Source of the DNA: Bacteroidales bacterium SW299
GTDB taxonomy: Bacteria; Bacteroidota; Bacteroidia; Bacteroidales; Bacteroidaceae
Assembly: GCA_019550975.1 (NCBI GenBank)
Contig: SDWH01000015.1
Coordinates: 1 to 64,000 of the forward strand
DNA length: 64,000 bases
Reading direction: 5' to 3'
Shown one piece after another: positions 28,264 to 41,425 of the stretch (its first letter is position 1; the number at the start of each line of letters is the position of its first letter). The notes under the pieces were generated by a model. That model saw only the letters and a program-made list of their open reading frames with translations, was not told the origin of the DNA and did not search any database. The translations under genes and the position numbers were made by a program.

Positions 28264-29424
28264 TTACATGTTTATGTCTGTAGGAACTTCTTCCCAGTCA
28301 TCCACGCTGACGGTGAAGGTGATGGGACCTCCCAGAATATCCTGTCCGCCGGTGCCCGGAGTTTCATCCGTCTTGTCATCCGTGCCGCCGGGGTTTTCCG
28401 GATTCGGGTCTATTTTGCCAGCACCGCCGCCGTCCCCGCAGAAAGTCAGGTTGTAGACATACTTTTTGCCCGGCTGCCAGTTTGTGTTGATGGCTACAGC
28501 AGAGTAAGCATACTTTCCTGCCTTGTTGTCACTTTCTGTCGGTTGCGGATAAATCAAGGTTTCTCCTGCGTCGCTGATATTGGAGATACGGCAGAGAACG
28601 GCGAGATAAGCGCCTTGCTTGTTTATTTCCGCCTCGGGGTTGTTCTTCGTTCCGTTCCATGGAGTGAGCTGCTGCGGAATGACCATGAAGTTCTTTTCTC
28701 CGAACATGACGGACTTCAGAGTACCGTCCAGAGTGACAGCTTCTGTTCCGTTGCTGTAATAAGCTTTTGCCGGCATATTCTGGTCTGCATGGCTGCCCCA
28801 TGCGTTGTCTGCCAGCTTAACGTTTGCTCCCAGTTCTGTTTCCGGGAAAGTCAGACTGGCTTTTGTTGCCATGTTGACCATCTTCACTCCGATGATTTCA
28901 ACTTTGATGGAGCTGCTTTTCGCGTTCTTGGCTTTTACCTCGATTTGAGATAGAGCATGCTTGAAGTTCAAGGGAACCGGAGCTGCGTTGTAAGTTTCTT
29001 TAGTCCCGGCTTTGTATGCAATCAGCAAATCCTTGTGGTTAGTCACGTTGCCGTCAGGAGTGAAATCGGAGATTGTTTTGCTGTCCTTGTTGATGGTTAC
29101 AGTTCCTTTTCCTGAGGCAGGACCGTTTGCGTAGGCATAGAATTTCAGCTCATACTCGGGCCAATAATATGTACCCGCAGTATTCCATGCGTCGCCAGAC
29201 TTCGTTACATCTGTTTCAAACTCTGTGCCGGTACTTCTGATGGCAGTAACCTTGAAAGCATTCAGAGAGGCGGATGTTTCTTGGTTGCCTTCTCGTGTAG
29301 AAGCGTCTACCAATGTGCGGAAAGCGATTCCTTTTCCACTGTTCACATCCACTACTTCGTCGTTGGAGCAGGCTGCAAATGATGCAGACACAATCGCTAA
29401 ACTCAAAATAATGTTACTCTTCAT
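28264..29424 (-). CDS. Fimbrillin-family lipoprotein (Mfa1/FimA-like)
   Basis: A 386-residue lipoprotein with a lipobox-like FAAC (C19) followed by SNDEVVDVNSGKGIAFRTLVDASTR. The sequence then follows the fimbrillin pattern of beta-strand-rich repeats: ALSQIEVKAKNAKSSSIKVEIIGVKMVNMATKASLTFPE, NFMVIPQQLTPW, and a C-terminal YNLTFCGDGGGAGKIDPNPE...ITFTVSVDDWEEV. The LSQIEVKAKN / VMIPQ / VDDW marks are shared with Bacteroidales fimbrillins that polymerise into surface fimbriae after lipid processing and proteolysis. It is the last gene of a leftward operon with an OmpA-DUF3575 protein and a DUF5119 lipoprotein. Confidence 0.88.
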   Translation of the reverse strand: MKSNIILSLAIVSASFAACSNDEVVDVNSGKGIAFRTLVDASTREGNQETSASLNAFKVTAIRSTGTEFETDVTKSGDAWNTAGTYYWPEYELKFYAYANGPASGKGTVTINKDSKTISDFTPDGNVTNHKDLLIAYKAGTKETYNAAPVPLNFKHALSQIEVKAKNAKSSSIKVEIIGVKMVNMATKASLTFPETELGANVKLADNAWGSHADQNMPAKAYYSNGTEAVTLDGTLKSVMFGEKNFMVIPQQLTPWNGTKNNPEAEINKQGAYLAVLCRISNISDAGETLIYPQPTESDNKAGKYAYSAVAINTNWQPGKKYVYNLTFCGDGGGAGKIDPNPENPGGTDDKTDETPGTGGQDILGGPITFTVSVDDWEEVPTDINM

Positions 29425-29466: not shown

Positions 29467-30378
29467 CTACATGGAGATTTCAATCTCCTCTGTATTCCAT
29501 TCGTCTACATTCGGGTTAAAGCCGCTGTCGTCGTCGATGGGCTTGGGCAGGGGAAGCCCGTCGAGCACGATGTGTACGTTCATCGGATCCGGCGCCTCGT
29601 GTATTTTTGCCGTGACATCATAGACAAAGCTGTATTTTTTCCCGTCGTTCAGCACGGCATATACAACCAGGCTTTGGGGAGTTTCCGATGCCGGTGGATA
29701 GCCGAAAGTGTAGAAATCGGCCTTTACAGTTGTCTTTCCGTCGGATGTCATGTCAAAGGGCAGCGTTGCCAGTTCGTCTGTCGGTGTGTCCTCACCGAGC
29801 ATAAAGCCGCCGGACATGCCTGTGAGCGAACCGAATATTTCTCCCGAGGAGATGTACTCCAGGTTTCCTGCATTTATTATTTCCACGGTATAGTGCCGCA
29901 CAACAATCTTCGGGTAGAGCGTAAGCGTCTGTCCTTCGCGTGAAGCCACCACCTCCACTTCTTCCGCGCGGTCGTCCCACAGCATGTCCGGGACCGCTCT
30001 GATGCTTTGGCCGTTTCGCGGTACGGGACGCGGGAACGCTCCCTCGGTCAGATAAGCCTCAAAGCTTTCATAATGCTCAGCGTTCCGGTAGAGGATGAAC
30101 TCTGTGTTGCTGTTCAGGCACAATGCGCGATAATGTCCGGCCGGAACCGTGACAGTTCCTCCCGTCCGGTCGGTGAACTCGTAGACCAGCGGTTCTTTTT
30201 CTGTTTTCGGAAAGAGATAAAGCCGCATGCTCGAGGGCCGGGCATCGGGAGCATATCTCCAGTCGAAGATTACCCGCAGATCAGCCGTGTGGGGATGGTC
30301 GAAGCAAAGCTCCTTGTGCTCGCATGCTGTCAGTATGCCTATCAGCACGAGCAGGGACAGTAGACCGTATCTTTTCAT
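29467..30378 (-). CDS. DUF5119 / FimB-Mfa2-like anchor lipoprotein
   Basis: A 303-residue lipoprotein; the signal ends ILTAC with C19 lipidated. The start CEHKELCFDHPHTADLRVIFDWRYAPDARPSSMRLYLFPK, then VYEFTDRTGGTVTVPAGHYRALCLNSNTE, is typical of DUF5119 proteins, which resemble FimB/Mfa2 anchors and sit beside fimbrillin genes. The likely role is surface anchoring or length control of the fimbria. Its ATG overlaps the stop of the upstream OmpA-DUF3575 gene by 4 bp, and the fimbrillin gene starts 42 bp downstream. Confidence 0.85.
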   Translation of the reverse strand: MKRYGLLSLLVLIGILTACEHKELCFDHPHTADLRVIFDWRYAPDARPSSMRLYLFPKTEKEPLVYEFTDRTGGTVTVPAGHYRALCLNSNTEFILYRNAEHYESFEAYLTEGAFPRPVPRNGQSIRAVPDMLWDDRAEEVEVVASREGQTLTLYPKIVVRHYTVEIINAGNLEYISSGEIFGSLTGMSGGFMLGEDTPTDELATLPFDMTSDGKTTVKADFYTFGYPPASETPQSLVVYAVLNDGKKYSFVYDVTAKIHEAPDPMNVHIVLDGLPLPKPIDDDSGFNPNVDEWNTEEIEISM

Positions 30379-31691
30379 TTTTTGCCTCCTTTCTTCAGGT
30401 TGTGGTTTCCGCGGCCAAGCAGCCAGACAAGAGATATCTCAGCCTTGGTCGGACCAAACCAGTGCCGCTGTTTCGTTGCCTGCCATACATAGTGGTTGTC
30501 CATGGGCAGGTATTCGTAATAGGTTCCTCCCCAGTAGCCCAGGCCGATGACAAAGTCGATGTTCAATCTCCTTGCAATGGGCAGCGAATAGCCATATTCC
30601 AGTCCTGCGGTGTAGTTCATCTTTTCCCACAGCGTGCCGCCCGGTTTGCCGCCCATGTATCCCCGCCCTCCGGTTTCGAAGTCGTAGGTAAGTATCTGTC
30701 CGTACACTCCCAGATGGTGTCCGCTGAGCGGGCTTCCTCCTTCCGGGCGGCAGAAGTATTTCCGTATGGCCAGTTCGCCTCCGTAGATTCGCCAGTAGCG
30801 GTGGCGTCTGTTCTTCTTCCACCATGCGTACATCCAGCTTCCTCTTGCCGAGAAGCCTTTGCCCAGATAAAACTCTACGCCGGCGTTGGGGACGAGCAGG
30901 GCGTCATAAAGCAGATTGGTTTTGACTGCCATGTAGAAGGGCGGCTGCTGTTGCGGTTCTGATATCATCCGGCTGTCTTCCGCTTCCATTTTGGATGCGG
31001 GTACAGGAGTGAGAGGCTGCGGCATCTCCACTGTATCTGTCTGTTCGGCATCAGGCTCTGACACTTGTTCCGTCCCGGCAGCCGGCAGCAAGGATACGTA
31101 TTGCACTTCAACGAGCGAACGGCGCAGCAGGGGAAAGAAATGCTTTTCCATATAGCGCCAGCTATTTCCCCGGTGAAGGTCCATCAGTTGCTTTTTGCGG
31201 CTGTCTACCACGATGCCGTTTTTTATGACCCACTCAGGGGTATTGTCCAGAATAGACAGCACTTCTTCTTTTTCTTTGCAGGGCATGTCAGACAGCGCGA
31301 CTTTCGTGCGGAGATTGTCCCAATCGATGCCGGCATGAGTTTCTGTTATAATGGAAGCCTGGGAAGGAATGCGGCGGCGAAGATAGTTGCCGATGCTCTG
31401 CGACCGGCGCTTCGACAAGTTTCTGTTCAGTGACGTGCTTCCTTCCGGCGATGCTCCCGACATTATGCTGAAACGGTCCAGGCGAAGCGTGCTGTCGGAT
31501 GAGAGTTTGTGGAGGACTCCCAATAGACTGTCCAGTTTGTTGCGGTTATCCTGATAGGCGGAGTCGATCCGCGCACTTCCCTGCCGGTAATAGACCTCGA
31601 CAGTGAAAGTGTCAACCGGCATAATGCCATCGGCCCATGCGGCAAGATTTGTTAGGGATAACATGCAAAAGCAATAAATTTTTTTTATCAT
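30375..31691 (-). CDS. OmpA-like / DUF3575 fusion protein (fimbrial operon)
   Basis: A 438-residue envelope protein. A signal peptide (about 1-20, LAAWADG) precedes an OmpA-like region (about 25-205; VEVYYRQGSARIDSAYQDNRNKLDSLLG, FSIMSGASPEGSTSLNRNLSKRRSQSIGNYLRRRIP), a Pro-rich linker (about 210-250) and a DUF3575 domain (about 250-438; PFYMAVKTNLLYDALLVPNAGVEFYLGKG ... GPTKAEISLVWLL). In the rightward operon the same two modules are separate genes (35561 and 36174). The domain pair probably forms an outer-membrane beta-barrel with peptidoglycan contact, supporting fimbria assembly. First gene of its operon; promoter at 31717-31724. Confidence 0.87.
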   Translation of the reverse strand: MIKKIYCFCMLSLTNLAAWADGIMPVDTFTVEVYYRQGSARIDSAYQDNRNKLDSLLGVLHKLSSDSTLRLDRFSIMSGASPEGSTSLNRNLSKRRSQSIGNYLRRRIPSQASIITETHAGIDWDNLRTKVALSDMPCKEKEEVLSILDNTPEWVIKNGIVVDSRKKQLMDLHRGNSWRYMEKHFFPLLRRSLVEVQYVSLLPAAGTEQVSEPDAEQTDTVEMPQPLTPVPASKMEAEDSRMISEPQQQPPFYMAVKTNLLYDALLVPNAGVEFYLGKGFSARGSWMYAWWKKNRRHRYWRIYGGELAIRKYFCRPEGGSPLSGHHLGVYGQILTYDFETGGRGYMGGKPGGTLWEKMNYTAGLEYGYSLPIARRLNIDFVIGLGYWGGTYYEYLPMDNHYVWQATKQRHWFGPTKAEISLVWLLGRGNHNLKKGGKK

Positions 31692-31716: not shown

Positions 31717-31821
31717 CAAATTTAGAGATAAGATTTCACAGAAAGCAGATTCTGCAATGTACATGTCTTTATGCGTAGTGTGCTGATATACAGGGTGTAA
31801 TATTCTTTTGTACATGTACAA
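31717..31821 (-). promoter_or_regulatory. Promoter and two palindromic operator sites of the leftward fimbrial operon
   Basis: On the minus strand a -7 box TAAATTTG (31724-31717) lies 33 bp before the ATG; no good -33 TTTG is visible. Two palindromic sites lie upstream. Site 1, centred at 31763.5 (TGTACA at 31758-31763, then TGTC), is 39.5 bp from the -7 box. Site 2, centred at 31814.5 (TTGTACATGTACAA, 31808-31821, a perfect palindrome), is 90.5 bp from it. The rightward fimbrial promoter has the same two distances. The weak -33 region suggests activation by a bound regulator. Confidence 0.75.
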
Positions 31822-31890
31822 TTTGCATTCGGATGATGTCCGTCCTGCTTTGTCTGCCTTTGCCGCCCGGCAATGAGCCTGTGCCAGATC

Positions 31891-33540
31891 TTAAAACTGT
31901 TTGATAAAGTCGTCCAAAGTCATGTTTTCGATCTGCATCTTTTCTTTCAGACGCATTTTCTTTCTCGAAATGCTTCCTTTGGCTATGTGGTATATTTCTG
32001 AAAGCAGGGAAAGCGAGAATTCCATCTTCAGCAGACAGGCAAAGCGCACCTCCTCCAGAGTGAGTTGCGGATAAGCCTCTTTCAGCCGGAACGTGAAGTC
32101 GTTGAAACATACATCCGTATTCTGTATGATTATATCCCACTCCTCCTTTTTCAGATGCATGGCTCCTTGCGAGTTCTGGCTTTTCATCAGAATCGGGACG
32201 GTTAGAGCATTCAGCCGCTTGTAGTATTCTACATTCTGGTTCAGCGATTCTATTTGAATGGCTTCACGGTTGTGTTTCTCCTGCAAATATTTCACCTCTG
32301 TTTCCCATTGGTTGTTCTGGAGCCGAACCATGTCCTGTTCCTTTTCCTTCAGTGACACCTCAACCTTTTTCTTGGCTTGCTTTATGCGGAGGACGATTGA
32401 GATGCCTAAACACAGCATCAGTGACAAGAGGATGGCCAGGCGGTAATAAGAAATTTCCTGTTCTGAAATCTTCGTGTTCATATTGGCTATTCTCTGCTGC
32501 TGGCGTTCGTGCTCCTGGAAAGCGTTCAGGTTGCTGATATATCCGGCCTTATTGTTTGCTTCCAGTGAATCCCTGCAGCGGATGCTTCTTTCAGCATACT
32601 CAGAGGCTGCCTGAAAGTCCTTTTCCTCCTTCTTCAGCAGTGCCATCTTGTAGTAAACGTCTTGCTTTTCTTTCAGGGGGAGTTTCTCGATGTTCTTCAG
32701 GAAAAGACGCTCCGCGTCCTTTAAGCGGTTCATTTTCAGGCAGATATTTCCTTTCAATACATTGCAAGTCAATTCGAACTCATCGGAATGGTCGTTTTGC
32801 AGGGCGATATCTATATAGAATAAAGCCGAATCAGGCCTGTTCATGGCCAGGCAGACTCTGCTCAGGTCCTTGTTGTATTCCGCCCGGGCAGAAAATTCCT
32901 TCTGCGGCAAGATGCTGAGAGCCTTGCACAGACGCTGTCCGGCTTCAGTGTAATTCTTTTCAGAAATGCGGAGTTCTGCAAGTTCATGCAGCGCTTCTGC
33001 CATCAGCGTAGAGTCTTTCATCTCGCTGGCGATGTCGAGGGCATGTTCCAGGCATTTTTCTTCCATGTCATGCATCATCTTGAAACGGTAAATATAGGCT
33101 TCTCCCACCTTGATGGCAAACATCATTCCGCTGTCCTTTTCTGCAAATCTCTCAGCCTGGCTGTAAGAGGCATTGGCTCTGAGAAAGGCGTATCTGCCGG
33201 AATATATTTTCCCAAGGAAGAAGTGCAATTGGCACAAGCGCGCGGAGTCTTTCTGTTTTGTAAAATGCGACAGAGCCACATCCGACTTGTCCAGAAGCAA
33301 TTCAGGAGCATCGGAAGTAAGCTGCGCCTTGACCAGCAGAAAATAATAGAATGCCTTGTCGGCTCCTCTCAGAGAGGATGTATCAATTTCAAGTATTTGC
33401 CTTACAGACTTTTCCGGGATAACGTCCAGGGAGTCTTCCAGCATCAGCAGCGACGGACTGTAAATGCTGTGTTGCTTACGGCTGCACGAAAATGAGCTCA
33501 TGATCAGCATTGCTACGATAAAACCTGTTTCCAACCGCAT
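31891..33540 (-). CDS. Membrane TPR regulator with C-terminal DNA-binding domain
   Basis: A 549-residue protein. The N-terminal signal/lipobox SSFSC (C19) begins an extracytoplasmic TPR region (about 25-340; EKCLEHALDIASEMKDSTLMAEALHELAELRISEKNYTEAGQRL and similar helical repeats). Then come a transmembrane helix (about 365-385, YRLAILLSLMLCLGISIVL), a coiled coil (about 390-440) and a cytoplasmic helical domain (about 470-549; YPQLTLEEVRFACLLKMEFSLSLLSEIYHIAKGSISRKKMRLKEKM) that reads as a LuxR-like helix-turn-helix. Such one-component membrane regulators are common in Bacteroidales. Start at 33540 preferred over 33621 because it gives a clean signal. Its position between two fimbrial operons makes it the candidate fimbria regulator. 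Confidence 0.8.
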   Translation of the reverse strand: MRLETGFIVAMLIMSSFSCSRKQHSIYSPSLLMLEDSLDVIPEKSVRQILEIDTSSLRGADKAFYYFLLVKAQLTSDAPELLLDKSDVALSHFTKQKDSARLCQLHFFLGKIYSGRYAFLRANASYSQAERFAEKDSGMMFAIKVGEAYIYRFKMMHDMEEKCLEHALDIASEMKDSTLMAEALHELAELRISEKNYTEAGQRLCKALSILPQKEFSARAEYNKDLSRVCLAMNRPDSALFYIDIALQNDHSDEFELTCNVLKGNICLKMNRLKDAERLFLKNIEKLPLKEKQDVYYKMALLKKEEKDFQAASEYAERSIRCRDSLEANNKAGYISNLNAFQEHERQQQRIANMNTKISEQEISYYRLAILLSLMLCLGISIVLRIKQAKKKVEVSLKEKEQDMVRLQNNQWETEVKYLQEKHNREAIQIESLNQNVEYYKRLNALTVPILMKSQNSQGAMHLKKEEWDIIIQNTDVCFNDFTFRLKEAYPQLTLEEVRFACLLKMEFSLSLLSEIYHIAKGSISRKKMRLKEKMQIENMTLDDFIKQF

Positions 33541-34020
33541 ATCTTTAACCTTATTAATATACACTTTTATCTTTTGGCATAGAATCTTTAGAAAAGAACG
33601 GGGGGTGTTATGCTTTGCCAAACATCCAGACGTTCATAAAGAACAATAATAAGTGAGGAATGTTTAGAAAATTAATATGATTACAATTTTTTGTAGAAAT
33701 CATTCTGCTTCACATAACATCAGACCGCTTGTTCCGGGACGAGTCATTTCTCGATCGGTCTGTTTTCTTTTCTGGTGCAAAGGAAGCGGTATTTGTATAG
33801 AAAAGCAATTTTTTACATGTACATGCTATGTCGCATAAAGGTCTGTATATCTGATTTTTCATGCTTTTAATGGATGTACATATGGGATGTACACGCAAGA
33901 TATGGAGGTGCATATGCAGAAAAAGCCCCGCAGCTTTCCTTATTCGCTTCGGGGCTGATGTTCCGGATCTCCGGTGCGGTTTTCAGCAGTTGTTCTGGCA
34001 GCTGCTTTGCTGGCGGGAAT
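33541..34020. other. Intergenic region with operator-like sites
   Basis: No convincing gene. It holds further TGTACA-type sites: TTTTACATGTACATGC (33811-33826), ATGTACATAT (33874-33883) and ATGTACAC (33887-33894). A minus-strand TTCCTTTG (33785-33778) could be a degenerate -7 box for the TPR regulator gene, placing one site centred about 38.5 bp upstream. CAGACCG (33721-33727) and CGGTCTG (33756-33762) form an inverted repeat in what would be the 5' leader. TGCATATGCA (33909-33918) is a further palindrome. Confidence 0.5.
33920..33956 (-). terminator. Terminator of the GH109-like gene
   Basis: AGCCCCG (33924-33930) pairs with CGGGGCT (33950-33956), with partial extension of the stem. On the minus strand it is followed by TTTTT, and it lies about 65 bp past the stop at 34021. 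Confidence 0.7.
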
Positions 34021-35160
34021 CTATCCGAGCTTTATTATGCGCTTTTCTTTAATCGATGATTTTGATAGCGGAGTTACGGATGTCCATGAGGCCAGATCGT
34101 TGAGATTGACTGGGTATACGCCTGTCCCCTTCATGTCTTCTGCCAGCATTTTCAGCATTATATAATCCATGCCTCTGTGGTGTTCATCTATTTTAATTGC
34201 TTCTTTTCCCCATTTCTTCCATGAAACGTGCTCGAACTCGTCAATATATCTGCCGTCATCCTCCCATGTTTCATAAGGAGAAACATTCTCTATGTATATT
34301 TTTCGGAACTCGCCTCTCCATATGCCTTTGCTTCCTTGCACTTCGATGTCCAGGCTTCTGGGGCGGGGGAGTGTCGTATCGTGAGTCAGCGTAACGAGGG
34401 TACCTTTCTCTGTAAGCATTTGCGTTATAATGATATCTCCCATGGTTATTGCCGGATGCTCACTCCCTCCATGGCAGCTGATGTATTCGGCTATGCCATG
34501 CGAGCTGGAAGCAAACGATGCCAGTTCAACAATTCTGTCTGTTCTGCCTATTCCGGAGAACAGACATATCGGAGCCAATCCGTGCGTGGGGTATATATCT
34601 CCGTTCTCTTTCTGATAGAATTTGCTTCTCCAGACTCCTTCCGCATTGGAGCCTTTGCCTATTTCTCCCTTTTCACTGATAAGTATTTTCCTGAGGTCGT
34701 GCCTGTAGCCGCCTTTTACGGCTACAATCTTTCCCAGCAAACCGGCGTTTATCAAATTGAGCATCGACATGTGCTCTCTCATGAATATGGTGTTCTCCAG
34801 GGGATAAACCGTTCTTTTCTTTTCGAGGGCGGCGCTGAGCAGTGACTTGTATTCGTCTATATACAGTCCTCCCTTTATCTCTAAAGCCACGTGGCAGCCA
34901 TTCAACACGGCAAACAGAGCCTGTTCGACGTGATGCTCCCATGGAGAAGCGATGATGACAAGTTCCGGAGCGCACTGCAATATCATATTTTTGTAATCGT
35001 CTTTGCCGTTTGAGAAAGAAGGGTATTTCCTCCTTGTTTCCTCGTCAATGCAAGGATCGGAAACCGATACTATATTAAAATCATCTATAGATGACAAAAG
35101 AGTCAGCAATCTTTTTCCTCTATAACCCAAACCTATTATGCTGGTTCTAATGGCTGCCAT
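34021..35160 (-). CDS. Gfo/Idh/MocA-family protein, GH109-like
   Basis: A 379-residue NAD-dependent oxidoreductase fold. The Rossmann start TSIIGLGYRGKRLLTLLSSIDDFNIVSVSDP carries the dinucleotide-binding GLGYRG; ELVIIASPWEHH and the later GDIYPTHGLAPICLFSGIGRTDRIVELASFAS resemble GH109 enzymes, which use bound NAD+ to cleave alpha-N-acetylgalactosamine and similar glycosides. The C-terminal HRGMDYIMLKMLAEDMK...VNLNDLASWTSVTPLSKSSI also fits GH109. No signal peptide is seen, so it is probably cytoplasmic, unlike many GH109 lipoproteins. It could instead be an ordinary sugar dehydrogenase. Location inside the fimbria locus is unexplained. Confidence 0.75.
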   Translation of the reverse strand: MAAIRTSIIGLGYRGKRLLTLLSSIDDFNIVSVSDPCIDEETRRKYPSFSNGKDDYKNMILQCAPELVIIASPWEHHVEQALFAVLNGCHVALEIKGGLYIDEYKSLLSAALEKKRTVYPLENTIFMREHMSMLNLINAGLLGKIVAVKGGYRHDLRKILISEKGEIGKGSNAEGVWRSKFYQKENGDIYPTHGLAPICLFSGIGRTDRIVELASFASSSHGIAEYISCHGGSEHPAITMGDIIITQMLTEKGTLVTLTHDTTLPRPRSLDIEVQGSKGIWRGEFRKIYIENVSPYETWEDDGRYIDEFEHVSWKKWGKEAIKIDEHHRGMDYIMLKMLAEDMKGTGVYPVNLNDLASWTSVTPLSKSSIKEKRIIKLG

Positions 35161-35430
35161 ATGAATTTAAATTAAGAGCCTGTTTTTAAAGATTAAAGTA
35201 TGAAACAAAAAGGGCGTTTTTCCTTTCCGCGAACTGATCATCTTTGGCTGCATTATGCATCCGTCGGGTCTGGAAGAAACACAGCGGCAAGTTATCAAGA
35301 AATTCTTTAACGTGCAAGCGGGAGCACGATTTTATAAGTTGTAAATCCATGCGCGGCATTGCGCCGTGGAAAGGCCTGATTGGGGGAAAAATCCGGGATT
35401 TGTGCCGTTTTGCGTGGTGTATTTGAGTAT

Positions 35431-35535
35431 TTGTACATTTGAGTAAAAAGGCTTTATTCTGAATATCAATAAGTTGTCTGATAGATCATGTACATCACGA
35501 GAAAGTGGGCGGATTCATCCCTGGTGTTAATTTTG
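35431..35535 (+). promoter_or_regulatory. Promoter and two operator sites of the rightward fimbrial operon
   Basis: A -7 box TAATTTTG (35528-35535) lies 33 bp before the ATG at 35561, with no good -33 TTTG. Site 1 is centred at 35488.5 (CATGTACATC, 35487-35496; full half-site TGTACA on the promoter side), 39.5 bp from the -7 box. Site 2 is centred at 35437.5 (TTGTACA, 35431-35437), 90.5 bp from it. Both distances equal those at the leftward fimbrial promoter. The rest of the gap from 35161 shows no gene. Confidence 0.75.
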
Positions 35536-35560: not shown

Positions 35561-36148
35561 ATGATAAAAAAGTATTTCTTAAGATTTACGTTGTCGGGAG
35601 TTATTTTGATGCTGGCACCTTCCTTGTCGGCTCAGAACCTGGCCGTGAAGACCAACTTGCTTTACGATGCTACGGCTACCATTAATGCCGGATTTGAAAC
35701 GGGGCTCAGTCCCAAATGGACGCTTGACGTTTCGGGCAATTATAATGGATGGAACATGAGCAGTTGCGGGTGTCGTAAATGGAAGCACTGGATGGTGCAG
35801 CCTGAGGCCCGGTATTGGTTCTGCGAACGTTTCAACGGTCATTTCCTGGCTATGCATGCGTTGGGAGGGCAATACAATCTCGCTAAAGTACATTTGCCTT
35901 TCGGGCTTTATCCGGGACTCCGCAACAACCGTTACGAAGGCTGGTATGCCGGAGCGGGCGTGGGCTATGGTTATCAGTGGGTGCTTAACAAACGCTGGAA
36001 CCTGGAAGCGGAAATCGGAGTAGGGTACGTTTATACGGACTATAAAACCTATCGTTGCTCTCAATGTCCCAAGCGGACGGATAAAGGGCACAAAAACTAT
36101 CTGGGCCCTACAAAAGCAGCCCTGACACTCGTATATGTCATTAATTGA
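35561..36148 (+). CDS. DUF3575 outer-membrane protein (fimbrial operon)
   Basis: A 195-residue protein with a signal peptide (about 1-25, APSLSAQ) followed by a single DUF3575 domain: LAVKTNLLYDATATINAGFETGLSPKWTLDVSGNYNGWN, PEARYWFCERFNGHFLAMHALGGQYN, GAGVGYGYQWVLNKRWNLEAEIGVGYVYTDY and GPTKAALTLVYVIN. The alternating strands suggest a small outer-membrane beta-barrel. DUF3575 genes regularly head Bacteroidales fimbrial operons, as here. The same domain is fused to an OmpA-like module in the leftward operon. It is 25 bp before the DUF3868 gene. Confidence 0.88.
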   Translation: MIKKYFLRFTLSGVILMLAPSLSAQNLAVKTNLLYDATATINAGFETGLSPKWTLDVSGNYNGWNMSSCGCRKWKHWMVQPEARYWFCERFNGHFLAMHALGGQYNLAKVHLPFGLYPGLRNNRYEGWYAGAGVGYGYQWVLNKRWNLEAEIGVGYVYTDYKTYRCSQCPKRTDKGHKNYLGPTKAALTLVYVIN

Positions 36149-36173: not shown

Positions 36174-37640
36174 ATGACAAATAGAATTATATTATCCGGA
36201 ATCTTATGGATAACGGCACTGGTCGCTGCCGCGCAGGTTTCTTATCTTGACCGCATAACGGTGGAAACAAAGGCGGTCAGGAAGGTTGATGATAACGTAA
36301 CGGTAGATTTGCTCTGGCAGTTTGCCGGACTGAAGGTGAACACCCAGAATCAGGCAAAGTTTACGCCCGTATTGGTTGCTGCCGACGGAACGGCAGAAGC
36401 CGAACTGCCTCCCGTGTTTGTCGAAGGCCGTGTGCGCAGGTGGGTGAACGAACGCCGTGAACTGTCTGCCGACTGGCTGCCGCGCAACGGAGAAGTGGTC
36501 CGTCGGCATAAAGGAAAATACATGCCGTTGGAATACCATGCCGAAATTCCATGGGAGCGTTGGATGTATGGCGCGCGCATCGAAATACGTGAATACGTGA
36601 CGGGCTGTGCTAACTGTCTGAACGGATATGCCGCGACTACCGTGGTGCCTTCTGTATTGCCCTATCGCATTCCTGATGCATCCGCATTCCGCTTCGCCTC
36701 TTTGGTTACACCGGAGGAAGAGGATGTGAAAATGCGCTCCATCACTTTCCGCGGACGTTTCCAGTTCCGTCTTGACAAGTATGATATAGATCCTGCTTAT
36801 AAAGACAATTACAAGAAACTTGAAGAGGCGCGCGAGAAGATTGATGAAGTGGCTTCCAATCCCGACCTGAGTATCGTGAGCATTGAAGTGGCGGGATATA
36901 CCTCGCCTGAAGCTACTGTCGCTTATAATGAACGTTTGGCACGCAATCGTTCGACGAGTCTTGTCAACTACATGAAGAAGCGTTTCCCGCAAGTGCCTGC
37001 CCAGAAGTGGTTTGCTTCTTGGCCTAATGAAGACTGGGGCGGATTGCGCGAGGCTGTAGAGAAAGACACTTTGCTTCCCGGGCGCGAACAGATACTGGAT
37101 GTCATCGGCAAATATCCGGACAATCTTGACCTGCGCGAACAGAAGTTGAAGGAGCTGCGTCCTGCCACCATTTATGAAACGCTCTACCGCAAGCATTACC
37201 CGTATTTGCGCCACAACGATTACATCATCCGTTTTGCTGTGCGTTCTTTTACGGTTGAGGAAGCGAGAGCACAGCTCTTGAAGCAGCCGGAACATTTGAG
37301 TGCGGCCGAGATCTATCGCGTGGCAATGAGCTATCCGGAAAACTCTCCGGAAAGGATTGAGGCATTCCAGACTGCTGTGCGCCTTTATCCTTCTGACGAC
37401 AAGGCTTTGCAGAACCTTGCTGTAGCATATCTGCAAGCGGGAGATCCGCTTAAGGCGCTTGCTCTGCTCGACGGAAAGGCACATACGGCTCCCTTGCAGA
37501 ATATCGTAGGCGTTGCCTTTATCCATGCAAAGCGGTACGAAGAAGCGCGCCTGTGGTTTGAAAAGGCTGCTGGTGCAGGTGCGTCTGATGCACGTGCGAA
37601 CTTGCAGCTGCTGAACGAATGGTTATCACATACCCGATGA
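36174..37640 (+). CDS. DUF3868 / OmpA-like / TPR protein (fimbrial operon)
   Basis: A 488-residue envelope protein. Signal peptide (about 1-21, VAAAQ); a DUF3868 N-terminal domain (about 22-185; VSYLDRITVETKAVRKVDDNVTVDLLW ... EYVTGCANCLNGYAATTV); an OmpA-like domain (about 200-370; FRLDKYDIDPAYKDNYKKLEEAREKIDEVASNPDLSIVSIEVAGYTSPEATVAYNERLARNRS); and a C-terminal TPR-like segment (about 375-488; LYPSDDKALQNLAVAYLQAGDPLKALALLDG). The OmpA-like part is homologous to the N-terminal half of the protein at 30375-31691. It probably organises fimbria export or anchoring at the outer membrane. Confidence 0.86.
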   Translation: MTNRIILSGILWITALVAAAQVSYLDRITVETKAVRKVDDNVTVDLLWQFAGLKVNTQNQAKFTPVLVAADGTAEAELPPVFVEGRVRRWVNERRELSADWLPRNGEVVRRHKGKYMPLEYHAEIPWERWMYGARIEIREYVTGCANCLNGYAATTVVPSVLPYRIPDASAFRFASLVTPEEEDVKMRSITFRGRFQFRLDKYDIDPAYKDNYKKLEEAREKIDEVASNPDLSIVSIEVAGYTSPEATVAYNERLARNRSTSLVNYMKKRFPQVPAQKWFASWPNEDWGGLREAVEKDTLLPGREQILDVIGKYPDNLDLREQKLKELRPATIYETLYRKHYPYLRHNDYIIRFAVRSFTVEEARAQLLKQPEHLSAAEIYRVAMSYPENSPERIEAFQTAVRLYPSDDKALQNLAVAYLQAGDPLKALALLDGKAHTAPLQNIVGVAFIHAKRYEEARLWFEKAAGAGASDARANLQLLNEWLSHTR

Positions 37641-37641
37641 A

Positions 37642-38742
37642 ATGAGATACCGCAGTCTACAATATAGTATACGCATGGTCGTGGCGGCATGGGCAGCTCT
37701 GTCTGTTGTGGCTTGCAGCAGCAAGGATGCCCTTGAATCCGCTGGCGCAGGGACGGACTTGATCGTCTGCTTTACAGGCGCTGAACGTCTGGACCGGATG
37801 TCTGGCGCTTTTACACGGGAGTCTGATGGAGGAGGTATTCCTTTAGAATACCGTCAGGTGAGCATTGAGTTGACTGACGCACACGGGGTGCGGACCTTCT
37901 CTACCATAGACGGTACGCTTCCGTCATCGGATATTCTGACATTGCCGGACAATCTCTCGCCGGAAGAAATGCTCGATGAGGGGTTTCGGATTACAGGTGT
38001 AGACAATCCTCAGAAACTGACAGTATCCATTAATGGAGGGATAGAAGCTCCTATGAGCCTCACTTCCACACTGGTGAACGCAGGACTTGCCGTTCCGCTT
38101 TATGCTGAGGTCACCCGTTTCGACTATACCGAAGACAACGACGGGCATCCCGTATGTGTGCTGATGGTGACGCCGAAGCATCGCATGGCACGGCTTGAAT
38201 TTGCCGGAGTGAGCATTGAGGGCACAAATCCTTCTTATACCGGCCTGGTATTGCAGGGAGCGTTTCTGAACAATGTGTTGCCGGCCGAACAGCCTGCCGT
38301 TCCCTTGCATTTCGACGGGTGGAACGAAGGGATGCTTACCGGTCTGCCTATGTCTGGCGGTGCGGCGGACCATTCAACAGGTTTTGCGTTTAATATCTTT
38401 CCGACTTATACGCAGACTCCCGAAGGATGGGCTGCGGATGTTGTGGAACGGTGGAGGCAGAAAGAGGGTGCTGTAAGCCGTTGGGTACCTTCTTTGACGC
38501 TTGTGTTCAAGGCCAAGCGAACGGATACCGGCAAAGAGCAGGTGCTTTATGCAGTGGTAACTAGTTATACCGAGCGTAACGGAGAGCTGATTGACATGTT
38601 TGAGCCGGGATGCATTTACCGTTTCGGAACAGTCACGGTGGATGTTGCAAAGAATCTGCTGGTGCGGGTCGAACCGGTTTTGTCCGGGGGGTCGCGCGGT
38701 GTTGCGTTATCCGGAACTGACTTATGGATATGCAGGCGGTAA
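37642..38742 (+). CDS. Fimbrillin-like lipoprotein, paralog 1
   Basis: A 366-residue lipoprotein; the signal ends SVVAC with the lipidated Cys near residue 25. Its body is paralogous to the next gene: NPQKLTVSINGGIEAPMSLTSTLVNAGLAVPLYAE and KHRMARLEFAGVSIEG ... LQGAFLNNVLPAEQPAVPLHFDGWNEG align with matching segments there, and both continue RWVPSLTLVFKAKR...YIYRFGTVTVD. The C-terminus (LVRVEPVLSGGSRGVALSGTDLWICRR) lacks the LKWSIxDG tail found in the next two genes, so it may be a tip or minor subunit, or have lost its end. The start is 2 bp after the previous stop. Confidence 0.82.
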   Translation: MRYRSLQYSIRMVVAAWAALSVVACSSKDALESAGAGTDLIVCFTGAERLDRMSGAFTRESDGGGIPLEYRQVSIELTDAHGVRTFSTIDGTLPSSDILTLPDNLSPEEMLDEGFRITGVDNPQKLTVSINGGIEAPMSLTSTLVNAGLAVPLYAEVTRFDYTEDNDGHPVCVLMVTPKHRMARLEFAGVSIEGTNPSYTGLVLQGAFLNNVLPAEQPAVPLHFDGWNEGMLTGLPMSGGAADHSTGFAFNIFPTYTQTPEGWAADVVERWRQKEGAVSRWVPSLTLVFKAKRTDTGKEQVLYAVVTSYTERNGELIDMFEPGCIYRFGTVTVDVAKNLLVRVEPVLSGGSRGVALSGTDLWICRR

Positions 38743-38794: not shown

Positions 38795-40345
38795 ATGAAC
38801 TTGAAATCGAACAAATTTCTTACATTAGGAGTAGTTGCGCTTCTGTTGGGAGCGTGTCAGAAAAATGAAATGCAGCTTCAGGGCGGTGATGTACTGTCGG
38901 GTGCCGGAACCCGGATGATGGTATATTTCGGAAATCCGGTGGGCGGCGCTTCACGCGGCGATGTCTTGGCGGATAAAACGCCCGGAAAAGTCGGTGAGAA
39001 TGTTATGGAGGTGACATACAATAAGGTAGAGTTTACATTGATTGACCAGGACGGGGGACGTGAACGCACGATAACGTTGCAAAACGGTGAGGCGGACAAG
39101 GCGAAATTACCCTTAGGCTCTACAGTTGCTGATGCAGATGCGTTAACTGGCCAGATTAACGGAAAAGAGGGGGTCGTATTCGAGGATGTTATTGATCCCA
39201 AGAAACTCACCGTGTCTATCAATGACGGAAAAGCTGCACCTATGGTGTTGACCGCTGAGCGTGTTACTTCCGGCTATGCTGAACCCCTTTACGCCGAAAC
39301 TACTGATTTCTCTAAAATAAGTACTGACGGTTCAAAGATAACTGTGGTGCTAAGTCCGGAACACCGCATGGCGCGTTTGGAATTTAGTGATATAAGTTTT
39401 AAAAACTATGATTGCGGATCTGACTACGAAGCAGCGGAAGCCAGAGTAATGTCAAGAAAGGAAGAGGGAGGCGATGATTATACCGGATTGGCAAGTTATT
39501 GCGATGGTGATTTCTATTTAACTTATACCAACCTTACTCTGAAAGGAATATTTCTGAATAACTTGTTGCTTGAAGAGGGACGGGAAGTGCCGGTGCATTA
39601 CGATGGATGGACAGAGGAGAGCGGAAACAACTCGGTTGATCCCGGAAAGGTGAAAGCCTCAGCGCCGATATATGTGAATAAATCCTATGAGTATAAATAC
39701 GAAACAGGAGAAAATGGAACGAAAGGTTCGTCTTACAACTTGAAGAACAATGCGCAATACACATTCAGCAATGCTGAAACGTATGGTGCTGACGGATTGA
39801 AAATATCCTTCAATGAACCGAACCTGCCGGGTTATATTCCGTATTGGGACGAGAGCAACACTGAATGGGCAAGTACTCAGCAAGATAAGGGCAAAGCATA
39901 TACCTTTAACATTTTCCCCAGTTATAAGGAAACGGATGAAAGCTATAAGAAATGGGATGCCGACGTACAGGCACGCTATTCGAAGAATGCGGATAACGTC
40001 AGCCGATGGGTCCCCAATCTGACTTTCGTGTTCTACGATGCTTCCTATGCCAAGAATTATGACGAAGCTTCGTCCAATGAGGACGAAGACGACCACATTC
40101 TTCCTGAGGGTAAGGAAGTAGGACATCAGGTCTTTGCCGTGGTAACAAAATATATCGACAATGCTACCGGAAGCAAGATTGACAGCTTCAAACCCGGCTA
40201 TATTTATCGCTTTACCGGAATGACGATTGATACAAAGAAACATATCGGTACGGATGTAGACGGTCCTCAGAAAGTTGGACTGATCGCCTATGTGAAAGTA
40301 TTGAAGTGGTCGATCGTGGATGGAACGGTATCTTTTGCCGAATAA
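38795..40345 (+). CDS. Fimbrillin-like lipoprotein, paralog 2 (probable major subunit)
   Basis: A 516-residue lipoprotein with the lipobox LGAC (C21) and then QKNEMQLQGGDVLSGAGTRMMVYF. It shares KKLTVSINDGKAAPMVLTAERVTSGYAEPLYAE and PEHRMARLEFSDISF...LKGIFLNNLLLEEGREVPVHYDGWTEE with the preceding paralog but carries an insertion of about 150 residues in the middle. It ends YIYRFTGMTIDTKKHIG...LIAYVKVLKWSIVDGTVSFAE; the terminal LKWSIVDG strand is what the fimbrial donor-strand mechanism would use. The longer length and complete tail make it the better major-fimbrillin candidate. Separate 52-bp gap from the upstream gene. Confidence 0.84.
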   Translation: MNLKSNKFLTLGVVALLLGACQKNEMQLQGGDVLSGAGTRMMVYFGNPVGGASRGDVLADKTPGKVGENVMEVTYNKVEFTLIDQDGGRERTITLQNGEADKAKLPLGSTVADADALTGQINGKEGVVFEDVIDPKKLTVSINDGKAAPMVLTAERVTSGYAEPLYAETTDFSKISTDGSKITVVLSPEHRMARLEFSDISFKNYDCGSDYEAAEARVMSRKEEGGDDYTGLASYCDGDFYLTYTNLTLKGIFLNNLLLEEGREVPVHYDGWTEESGNNSVDPGKVKASAPIYVNKSYEYKYETGENGTKGSSYNLKNNAQYTFSNAETYGADGLKISFNEPNLPGYIPYWDESNTEWASTQQDKGKAYTFNIFPSYKETDESYKKWDADVQARYSKNADNVSRWVPNLTFVFYDASYAKNYDEASSNEDEDDHILPEGKEVGHQVFAVVTKYIDNATGSKIDSFKPGYIYRFTGMTIDTKKHIGTDVDGPQKVGLIAYVKVLKWSIVDGTVSFAE

Positions 40346-40408: not shown

Positions 40409-41425
40409 ATGAACAAATCTTTCTTTGCGCTATGGACAAAATTCCTTCCGGTCGTTATTGGACTTCTTCTGACGGGGGCTGTTGCAAGCTGCGTATATGA
40501 CGATAAAGCGGCAGACTGCGACAATGTGATACTTCGGTTTATATATTATGCCGACGGAGAAGAAAATGTCATTCAGGACTACCTGCATGGCATAGATGTC
40601 TATATTTTCGACGGGAAGGGCAAACTGGCAGCCAAAGCTCACCTGACGGAACAGGAGATACGAGCCGGTATGCCTCTGGAGTTGGACTTGCCCGACGGGA
40701 TTTACCATGCAGTGGCTTTCGGAAATGACTTTGACAATACTTCGCTTGAGAATGTACTCACTCCCGTCGATCTTGAACGTATCTCGATGTATAATCCGAA
40801 CAGTGAGAAGCAGACAAACGACCGCAATTATTTTGGAAAGCACACTTTTGAAGTGACTTCGAGTGAGGAATATTTCCGTCCGGTAGTGGAGGAGACTGTG
40901 GAAATGAAAAGCGCGCACACCGAGTTGCGTATAGGAGTGAAGGGGCTGCCCGGGCCGGAGAATCCGGAGCGGATGCCTTACTATATAGAACTCTCCGGAG
41001 CTGTTCCTGCCATGGATATCAATGGGAATCCCACAGGCAGCGGAACAAACGACTATCGGCCAGTGCTGCGATGGGACCCGAATACGGGCACTTACATTTC
41101 CGAACTCTCTTTCTTCCGCCGAAACGGACATGGTGAAGACGGGCGGAATCCCGAAGCCGAGCTTGAGCAGACTACGCGGAATATATATGTCCGTGTATAT
41201 GCTGCGGACGGCACACCGATGACTGAACCCATTTCGTTGTGGGAGTTTTTGAAGAGGAATCTGTCCGGAAAGGAAATCCGTGAAGTGGGTACGCTGCAAG
41301 AGCAGCAGCTCGATATGCGAATAGAGTTTTCCTCGCCTGATGAAAAGAACCCGGAAATGCTCACCTATGTGGTGCTTCTTAAATGGAGCATTACGGACGG
41401 AAGCATCGGGTTCGGTGATGATTGA
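40409..41425 (+). CDS. FimB/Mfa2-family anchor lipoprotein
   Basis: A 338-residue lipoprotein, lipobox VASC (about C28) followed by VYDDKAADCDNVILRFIYYADGEENVIQDYLHGIDVYIFDGKGKLAAKAHLTEQEI, a Mfa2/FimB signature. LDLPDGIYHAVAFGNDFDN and the C-terminal TYVVLLKWSITDGSIGFGDD are also typical. Mfa2/FimB proteins anchor the fimbrial shaft to the outer membrane and limit its length. It is the last gene of the rightward operon, followed by a strong terminator. The LKWSIxDG tail is shared with the fimbrillin upstream. Confidence 0.87.
   Translation: MNKSFFALWTKFLPVVIGLLLTGAVASCVYDDKAADCDNVILRFIYYADGEENVIQDYLHGIDVYIFDGKGKLAAKAHLTEQEIRAGMPLELDLPDGIYHAVAFGNDFDNTSLENVLTPVDLERISMYNPNSEKQTNDRNYFGKHTFEVTSSEEYFRPVVEETVEMKSAHTELRIGVKGLPGPENPERMPYYIELSGAVPAMDINGNPTGSGTNDYRPVLRWDPNTGTYISELSFFRRNGHGEDGRNPEAELEQTTRNIYVRVYAADGTPMTEPISLWEFLKRNLSGKEIREVGTLQEQQLDMRIEFSSPDEKNPEMLTYVVLLKWSITDGSIGFGDD

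Follow-up and report, generated by a model that had tools for sequence, protein, structure and literature searches.

A paired direct-repeat operator shared by type V pilus promoters and the gene of a predicted membrane-spanning TPR regulator in Bacteroidales bacterium SW299

In a 64,000-nt stretch of the Bacteroidales bacterium SW299 genome (GenBank assembly GCA_019550975.1, contig SDWH01000015.1; called the window below), two fimbrial operons run in opposite directions on either side of a gene for a TPR protein. How are these operons switched on? Apart from phase variation, little is known about the switching-on of type V pili in gut Bacteroidales. The original prediction for this locus was that the matched layout of the two promoters and their weak -33 regions reflect activation by one shared regulator. 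We found that the same layout recurs at the gene of the TPR protein itself, at three further fimbrillin genes and at loci of other genomes that carry homologs of this protein, which strongly supports a shared regulator. The TPR protein is probably this regulator: a membrane-spanning activator that would control its own gene and a dispersed type V pilus regulon through a paired TGTACATC operator.

Each operon is preceded by a -7 box that starts 33 bp before the ATG: TAAATTTG (31724..31717, minus strand) for the leftward operon with its ATG at 31691, and TAATTTTG (35528-35535, plus strand) for the rightward operon with its ATG at 35561. The symmetry centers proposed earlier (31763.5 and 31814.5 in one promoter, 35488.5 and 35437.5 in the other) were located correctly, 39.5 and 90.5 bp upstream of the -7 boxes. 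A third promoter with matching layout, upstream of the regulator gene, had been overlooked. In all three promoters, named A (leftward operon), B (regulator gene) and C (rightward operon), two TGTACA words are spaced 57 bp start to start. The outer and inner words are at 31815-31820 and 31758-31763 in promoter A (minus strand), at 33875-33880 and 33818-33823 in promoter B (minus strand), and at 35432-35437 and 35489-35494 in promoter C (plus strand). An 11-bp middle element is found at offset 27 from the outer TGTACA: CTGTATATCAG in A (31783-31793, minus), CAGATATACAG in B (33843-33853, minus) and CTGAATATCAA in C (35459-35469, plus). The distance from the end of the inner word to the -7 box is 33 bp in A and C and 32 bp in B, where a -7-like box, TTCCTTTG, is located at 33778-33785 (minus). 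One more TGTACA (33888-33893) lies directly upstream of the outer element of promoter B.

What is the repeated unit? The original prediction described palindromes or half-palindromes of the TTGTACATGTACAA type. One complete 14-bp TTGTACATGTACAA is present (31808-31821), a perfect palindrome formed where an extra TGTACA (31809-31814) adjoins the outer element of promoter A; the other three sites are half-sites only. In an alignment of 41 promoters the palindromic partner of TGTACA is not conserved, nor is a TTGTACATGTACAA operator with centers 51 bp apart. Genome-wide, the palindrome with no more than one mismatch occurs 14 times compared with 11 for the reversed control, i.e., it is not enriched. 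The 14-bp palindrome was rejected as the operator on these two grounds. The conserved unit in the alignment is a direct repeat of TGTACATC, 55 to 57 bp apart, with both copies facing the promoter. The unit is written as TGTACATC because columns after TGTACA that were outside the search pattern are conserved: T in 98% (outer) and 93% (inner), and C in 86% (outer) and 60% (inner). Other conserved columns outside the pattern are an A-rich stretch after the outer word, the CTGwwwATCAG-like middle element between the two copies, TTTA before the inner word, and a C after the -7 box in 88%. The weak -33 region pointed out for the two operons holds more widely, as TTTG in the -33 region of 42 promoters is at chance level (four found, 3.2 expected).

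The arrangement is rare. TGTACA is present eight times in the 4.2-kb stretch holding the three promoters, compared with 0.44 copies expected from dinucleotide shuffles of this stretch. None of 5000 shuffles reached eight copies, or even two pairs with a common spacing. The 3.87-Mb genome contains exactly three copies of TGTACA-N51-TGTACA, namely those in promoters A, B and C, and shows no general scatter of the paired motif. Zero to two copies, in scattered positions, are present in other genomes of the order. We also searched 399 genomes of the family with the composite pattern TGTACA-N(49-51)-TGTACA-N(32-33)-TAnnTTTG and with a reversed control pattern. The composite pattern was found 43 times among the matches listed, in 26 of the 399 genomes, and the reversed control was not found in any. 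A match in G518, in which a TGTACACATT motif is repeated, probably has no relation to the others.

Which genes of this genome carry the operator? A sequence profile, R1, was built from the operator alignment and used in a genome scan. Six sites scored 35 bits or more; the next score was 19.6 (promoter A on the reverse strand), followed by an unrelated match at 16. One of the six sites is in the regulator promoter and the other five are in promoters of fimbrial operons or fimbrillin genes; three of the six are on other contigs (C55:129093, C8:80087 and C12:254310). The C8 and C12 sites were outside the R1 training set, and the genes downstream of them encode proteins of 867 and 885 aa with Mfa_like_1 domains (E ~1e-25). 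The inner element of the C8 site is degenerate (TGTCTA), with the spacing of 55 and the -7 distance of 33 kept. The 578-aa protein encoded downstream of the C55 site has no Mfa_like_1 match; it resembles the large fimbrillins beside the Coprobacter regulator described below. Its gene (L106:9220-10956, G000 C55) looks internally deleted in comparison with homologs of 830 to 910 aa. Ten Mfa_like_1 genes are present in the genome and three of them are in the putative regulon; the control would therefore cover a subset only.

The layout is conserved in related loci, which were fetched by protein homology alone. Relatives of the regulator in a named genome collection were found in Phocaeicola coprophilus (80% identity) and Coprobacter secundus (73%), and these orthologous loci carry the paired motif. 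In P. coprophilus the TGTACA pairs are spaced 56 bp upstream of the regulator gene and 56 and 57 bp before the neighboring fimbrillin genes or operons. The P. coprophilus locus (L131) has the regulator, two large fimbrillin-family genes and an operon like the leftward one in a row, with three operators, and TTCCTTTG is present in its regulator promoter at the position equivalent to that in promoter B. In Coprobacter secundus the spacing is 57 bp upstream of the regulator gene and 55 bp before the neighboring fimbrillin genes or operon. Regulators of the window's genus with 31 to 38% identity have 55-bp pairs just past their 3' ends, before the next gene. Within the homology-fetched loci, 13 of 18 TGTACA pairs less than or equal to 200 bp apart are spaced 55 to 57 bp, and 12 of these 13 carry TnnnTTTG at 32 or 33. 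The paired operator is found beside regulator homologs in many Bacteroidaceae and in Coprobacter. Some species have two operator-like sites between the regulator and a divergent neighbor gene (L130:7706-8091 and L128:8038-8454). In four genomes (loci L107, L122, L133 and L144) the operator precedes related genes of approximately 520 aa, assigned to the PAP2 family in the two that were scanned, and in other species it precedes related 230-aa proteins of no named family; outside this genome the operator is therefore not limited to fimbriae.

What binds the operator? The best candidate is encoded between the operator-bearing promoters (31891-33540, minus strand; 549 aa). The protein is predicted to consist of an N-terminal signal or lipobox-like segment (MSSFSC), a TPR domain, one transmembrane helix, a coiled coil and a C-terminal helix-turn-helix (HTH). 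This order is opposite to that of ToxR. The AlphaFold model (pLDDT 84) has a TPR superhelix at approximately residues 29 to 305, a long helix at 309 to 453 and a compact C-terminal HTH (pLDDT 89.5 for the C-terminal domain). By hydropathy, a single strong transmembrane segment (366 to 386) is predicted inside the long helix, followed by the positive stretch KQAKKK; in the predicted topology the TPR domain is N-terminal to the helix and the positive residues come after it. Pfam identified TPRs only, with weak and inconsistent matches on the C-terminal HTH. Among 18 members, none matched the GerE profile with an E of 1 or less, and a PDB sequence search with the regulator found nothing. The TPR part structurally resembles many TPR proteins, including the peptide-binding Rap and NprR. 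In Foldseek the top matches of the HTH were mostly DosR, VraR and NarL (TMt 0.64 to 0.73), all weak with E of approximately 1 to 3. The predicted HTH superposes on these NarL/FixJ/LuxR-type domains at approximately 2 Å over approximately 60 residues; it differs from them in having no sequence-profile match and a Foldseek E near 1.

The C-terminal 110 residues are 55 to 95% identical in most homologs, compared with 25 to 80% for the whole protein. In the three most distant homologs the figures are 36 to 38% and 20 to 23%, respectively. The segment YHIAKGSISRRKMRLKEKM is nearly invariant. The regulator and the operator also occur together. Among 61 genomes of the window's genus, 14 have both, four have the operator only, one has the regulator only and 42 have neither (Fisher P = 1.9e-9, uncorrected for phylogeny). 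In the regulator-only genome (G402), a degenerate site occupies the conserved position (L141:7689-7786, 28 bits). Measured from the -7 box to the ATG, the leader of the regulator transcript would be long, approximately 238 nt (33541-33777, minus), and in P. coprophilus and Coprobacter it would be 230 to 260 nt; an extended reading frame that opens with TTG at 33621 is also present. A second TPR-HTH protein of this genome (608 aa; L166:1510-3336, G000 C39) shows 35% identity to the regulator in the HTH only. It is closer to the BT3442 family (E 4e-32), and its gene is near a transposase-like gene and outer-membrane genes, with no good operator close by (8.7 bits).

How would such a protein control these promoters? 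In the common operator-promoter, two direct TGTACATC copies flank the CTGwwwATCAG-like element, a TAnnTTTG(C) -7 box follows the inner copy after 32 to 33 bp, and there is no -33 element. If the Bacteroides -7 consensus TANNTTTGY (PMC12632263) is applied and transcription is assumed to start shortly after it, the inner and outer elements would be near -47 and -103, respectively. An inner site upstream of a promoter with no -33, together with a second site 55 to 57 bp further up, has the look of a class II-like activator site. The most likely binder would be the one-component TPR-HTH protein. Its TPR domain, predicted to be periplasmic, may sense a ligand or the assembly state, and the single transmembrane helix and coiled coil may relay the signal to the HTH, predicted to be cytoplasmic and NarL/LuxR-like. 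Bound at the inner and outer elements, the protein would recruit or stabilize RNA polymerase and would jointly activate the regulator gene, the type V pilus operons on either side of it and the three unlinked fimbrillin genes.

Several observations fit this proposal less well. Promoter B, that of the regulator gene, has an imperfect -7 box (TTCCTTTG). The operator in other genomes also precedes non-fimbrial genes (PAP2, BspA-like leucine-rich repeat and outer membrane protein genes). The HTH matches the fold of NarL/LuxR domains weakly (best E 0.8), R1 was partly trained on sites chosen by TGTACA and the -7 box, and the Fisher test treated the genomes as independent of phylogeny. Four genus genomes with operators have no close regulator (G420, G421, G425 and G429).

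These four genomes, and several loci with no regulator homolog near the site, would also be expected if another, unlinked transcription factor bound the operator and the TPR-HTH protein were merely its neighbor and target. We regard this as unlikely. The regulator and operator co-occur across the genus and adjoin in many loci. No part of the TPR-HTH protein is more conserved than its HTH, and at least one of the operator-only genomes (G420) has a distant regulator homolog (L140). The main alternative to activation is that the regulator is a repressor, which would loop the DNA by binding at two sites and shut the promoter until a signal relieves it. Such looping would be suited by sites approximately 5.4 helical turns apart, by autoregulation and by the variable spacing of 55 to 57 bp. 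Against it, both elements are located further upstream than -33, so that the -7 box stays free, the distance from the inner element to the -7 box is near-fixed at 32 to 33 bp, and the promoters have no -33, like activator-dependent promoters; repression appears rather improbable. It is very improbable that the repeats are recombination sites of an invertible promoter. Phase-variable fimbriae are known in gut Bacteroidales, including some Bacteroides fimbriae (PMC12632263), but the repeats here are in direct rather than inverted orientation, with every copy facing the promoter; this explanation was discarded on the absence of inverted repeats of at least 12 bp in the three promoter regions. Chance occurrence of short AT-rich words near fimbrial promoters, which could be imagined from single TGTACATGTACA-like words being about as common genome-wide as a reversed control, is practically excluded by the shuffles, the empty reversed control in the 399 genomes and the conservation at orthologous loci.

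If the TPR-HTH protein is the activator, it would resemble SusR-like regulators of Bacteroides polysaccharide loci, which are of similar size, span the membrane, have a C-terminal HTH and control an adjacent outer-surface operon; the targets here differ in being fimbriae. It also resembles the BT3442 family (NCBIfam NF053779), which are TPR proteins of similar length and layout, in a near full-length alignment (E 1e-10), and misses the family cut-off (40.7 bits compared with 940). BT3442 is uncharacterized and sits with MACPF genes; it was found only in a MACPF structure paper (PMC2954219). One-component transmembrane transcription regulators such as ToxR and CadC have been surveyed (PMC10269533), and in Yersinia a fimbria is under the control of PsaE/PsaF, a membrane-bound system (PMC6657601, PMC8407435). 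Like the one-component regulators, the TPR-HTH protein is predicted to combine a DNA-binding domain, a transmembrane helix and an extracytoplasmic domain in one protein. Unlike them, it would have a C-terminal, NarL/LuxR-like DNA-binding domain, an N-terminal TPR superhelix as the sensor and an operator that is a 55- to 57-bp direct repeat. TPR is not mentioned in the text of the survey.

In the literature searched, the control described for type V pili of gut species is phase variation, and an operator of the paired type was not found. A text search found no description of the operator or regulator (most subscription journals and preprints are outside its coverage); of the matches to TGTACA operators in Bacteroides, the Bacteroidales match that was examined is a primer sequence and the remaining ones are unrelated by title. 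The paired operator looks like a previously undescribed way of turning the fibers on together, because it is common to both operons, the regulator gene, three distant fiber genes and related gut bacteria. We lean slightly toward a wider interpretation, in which a widespread and undescribed Bacteroidaceae family of membrane-spanning TPR-HTH activators switches on dispersed pilus and other surface-protein genes in trans, including its own gene, by way of a single composite operator with a fixed 33 bp to the -7 box. The DNA-binding domain of such a family would be strongly conserved and its sensors diverged. The signal that reaches the periplasmic TPR domain might be the assembly of the pilus or a peptide from outside. 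The analysis offers a named candidate regulator, an operator of fixed geometry and a six-promoter regulon in which two pilus operons are tied to fimbrillin genes at unlinked sites. The model is directly testable, and in many Bacteroidaceae co-expressed surface genes can be predicted from the operator.

Between the regulator promoter and the rightward operon is a Gfo/Idh/MocA-type gene with a Glyco_hydro_109_C domain (34021-35160), which has no operator of the paired TGTACATC type. The leftward operon (minus strand) encodes DUF3575 (30375-31691, Pfam E 1e-36), DUF5119 (29467-30378, E 7e-58) and an Mfa_like_1 fimbrillin (28264-29424, E 5e-18). The rightward operon (plus strand) starts with DUF3575 (35561-36148, E 1e-76) and a DUF3868/OmpA-like/TPR protein (36174-37640, Pfam). 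The next two genes (37642-38742 and 38795-40345) have no Pfam match and probably encode fimbrillin-like lipoproteins, judging from their position and lipoprotein-like N-termini. The fifth gene encodes an Mfa2 anchor (40409-41425, E 2e-20). With Mfa_like_1 in the leftward operon, Mfa2 in the rightward one and DUF3575 in both, in addition to DUF3868, the two resemble the FimA/Mfa1-like type V pilus operons of Bacteroidales.

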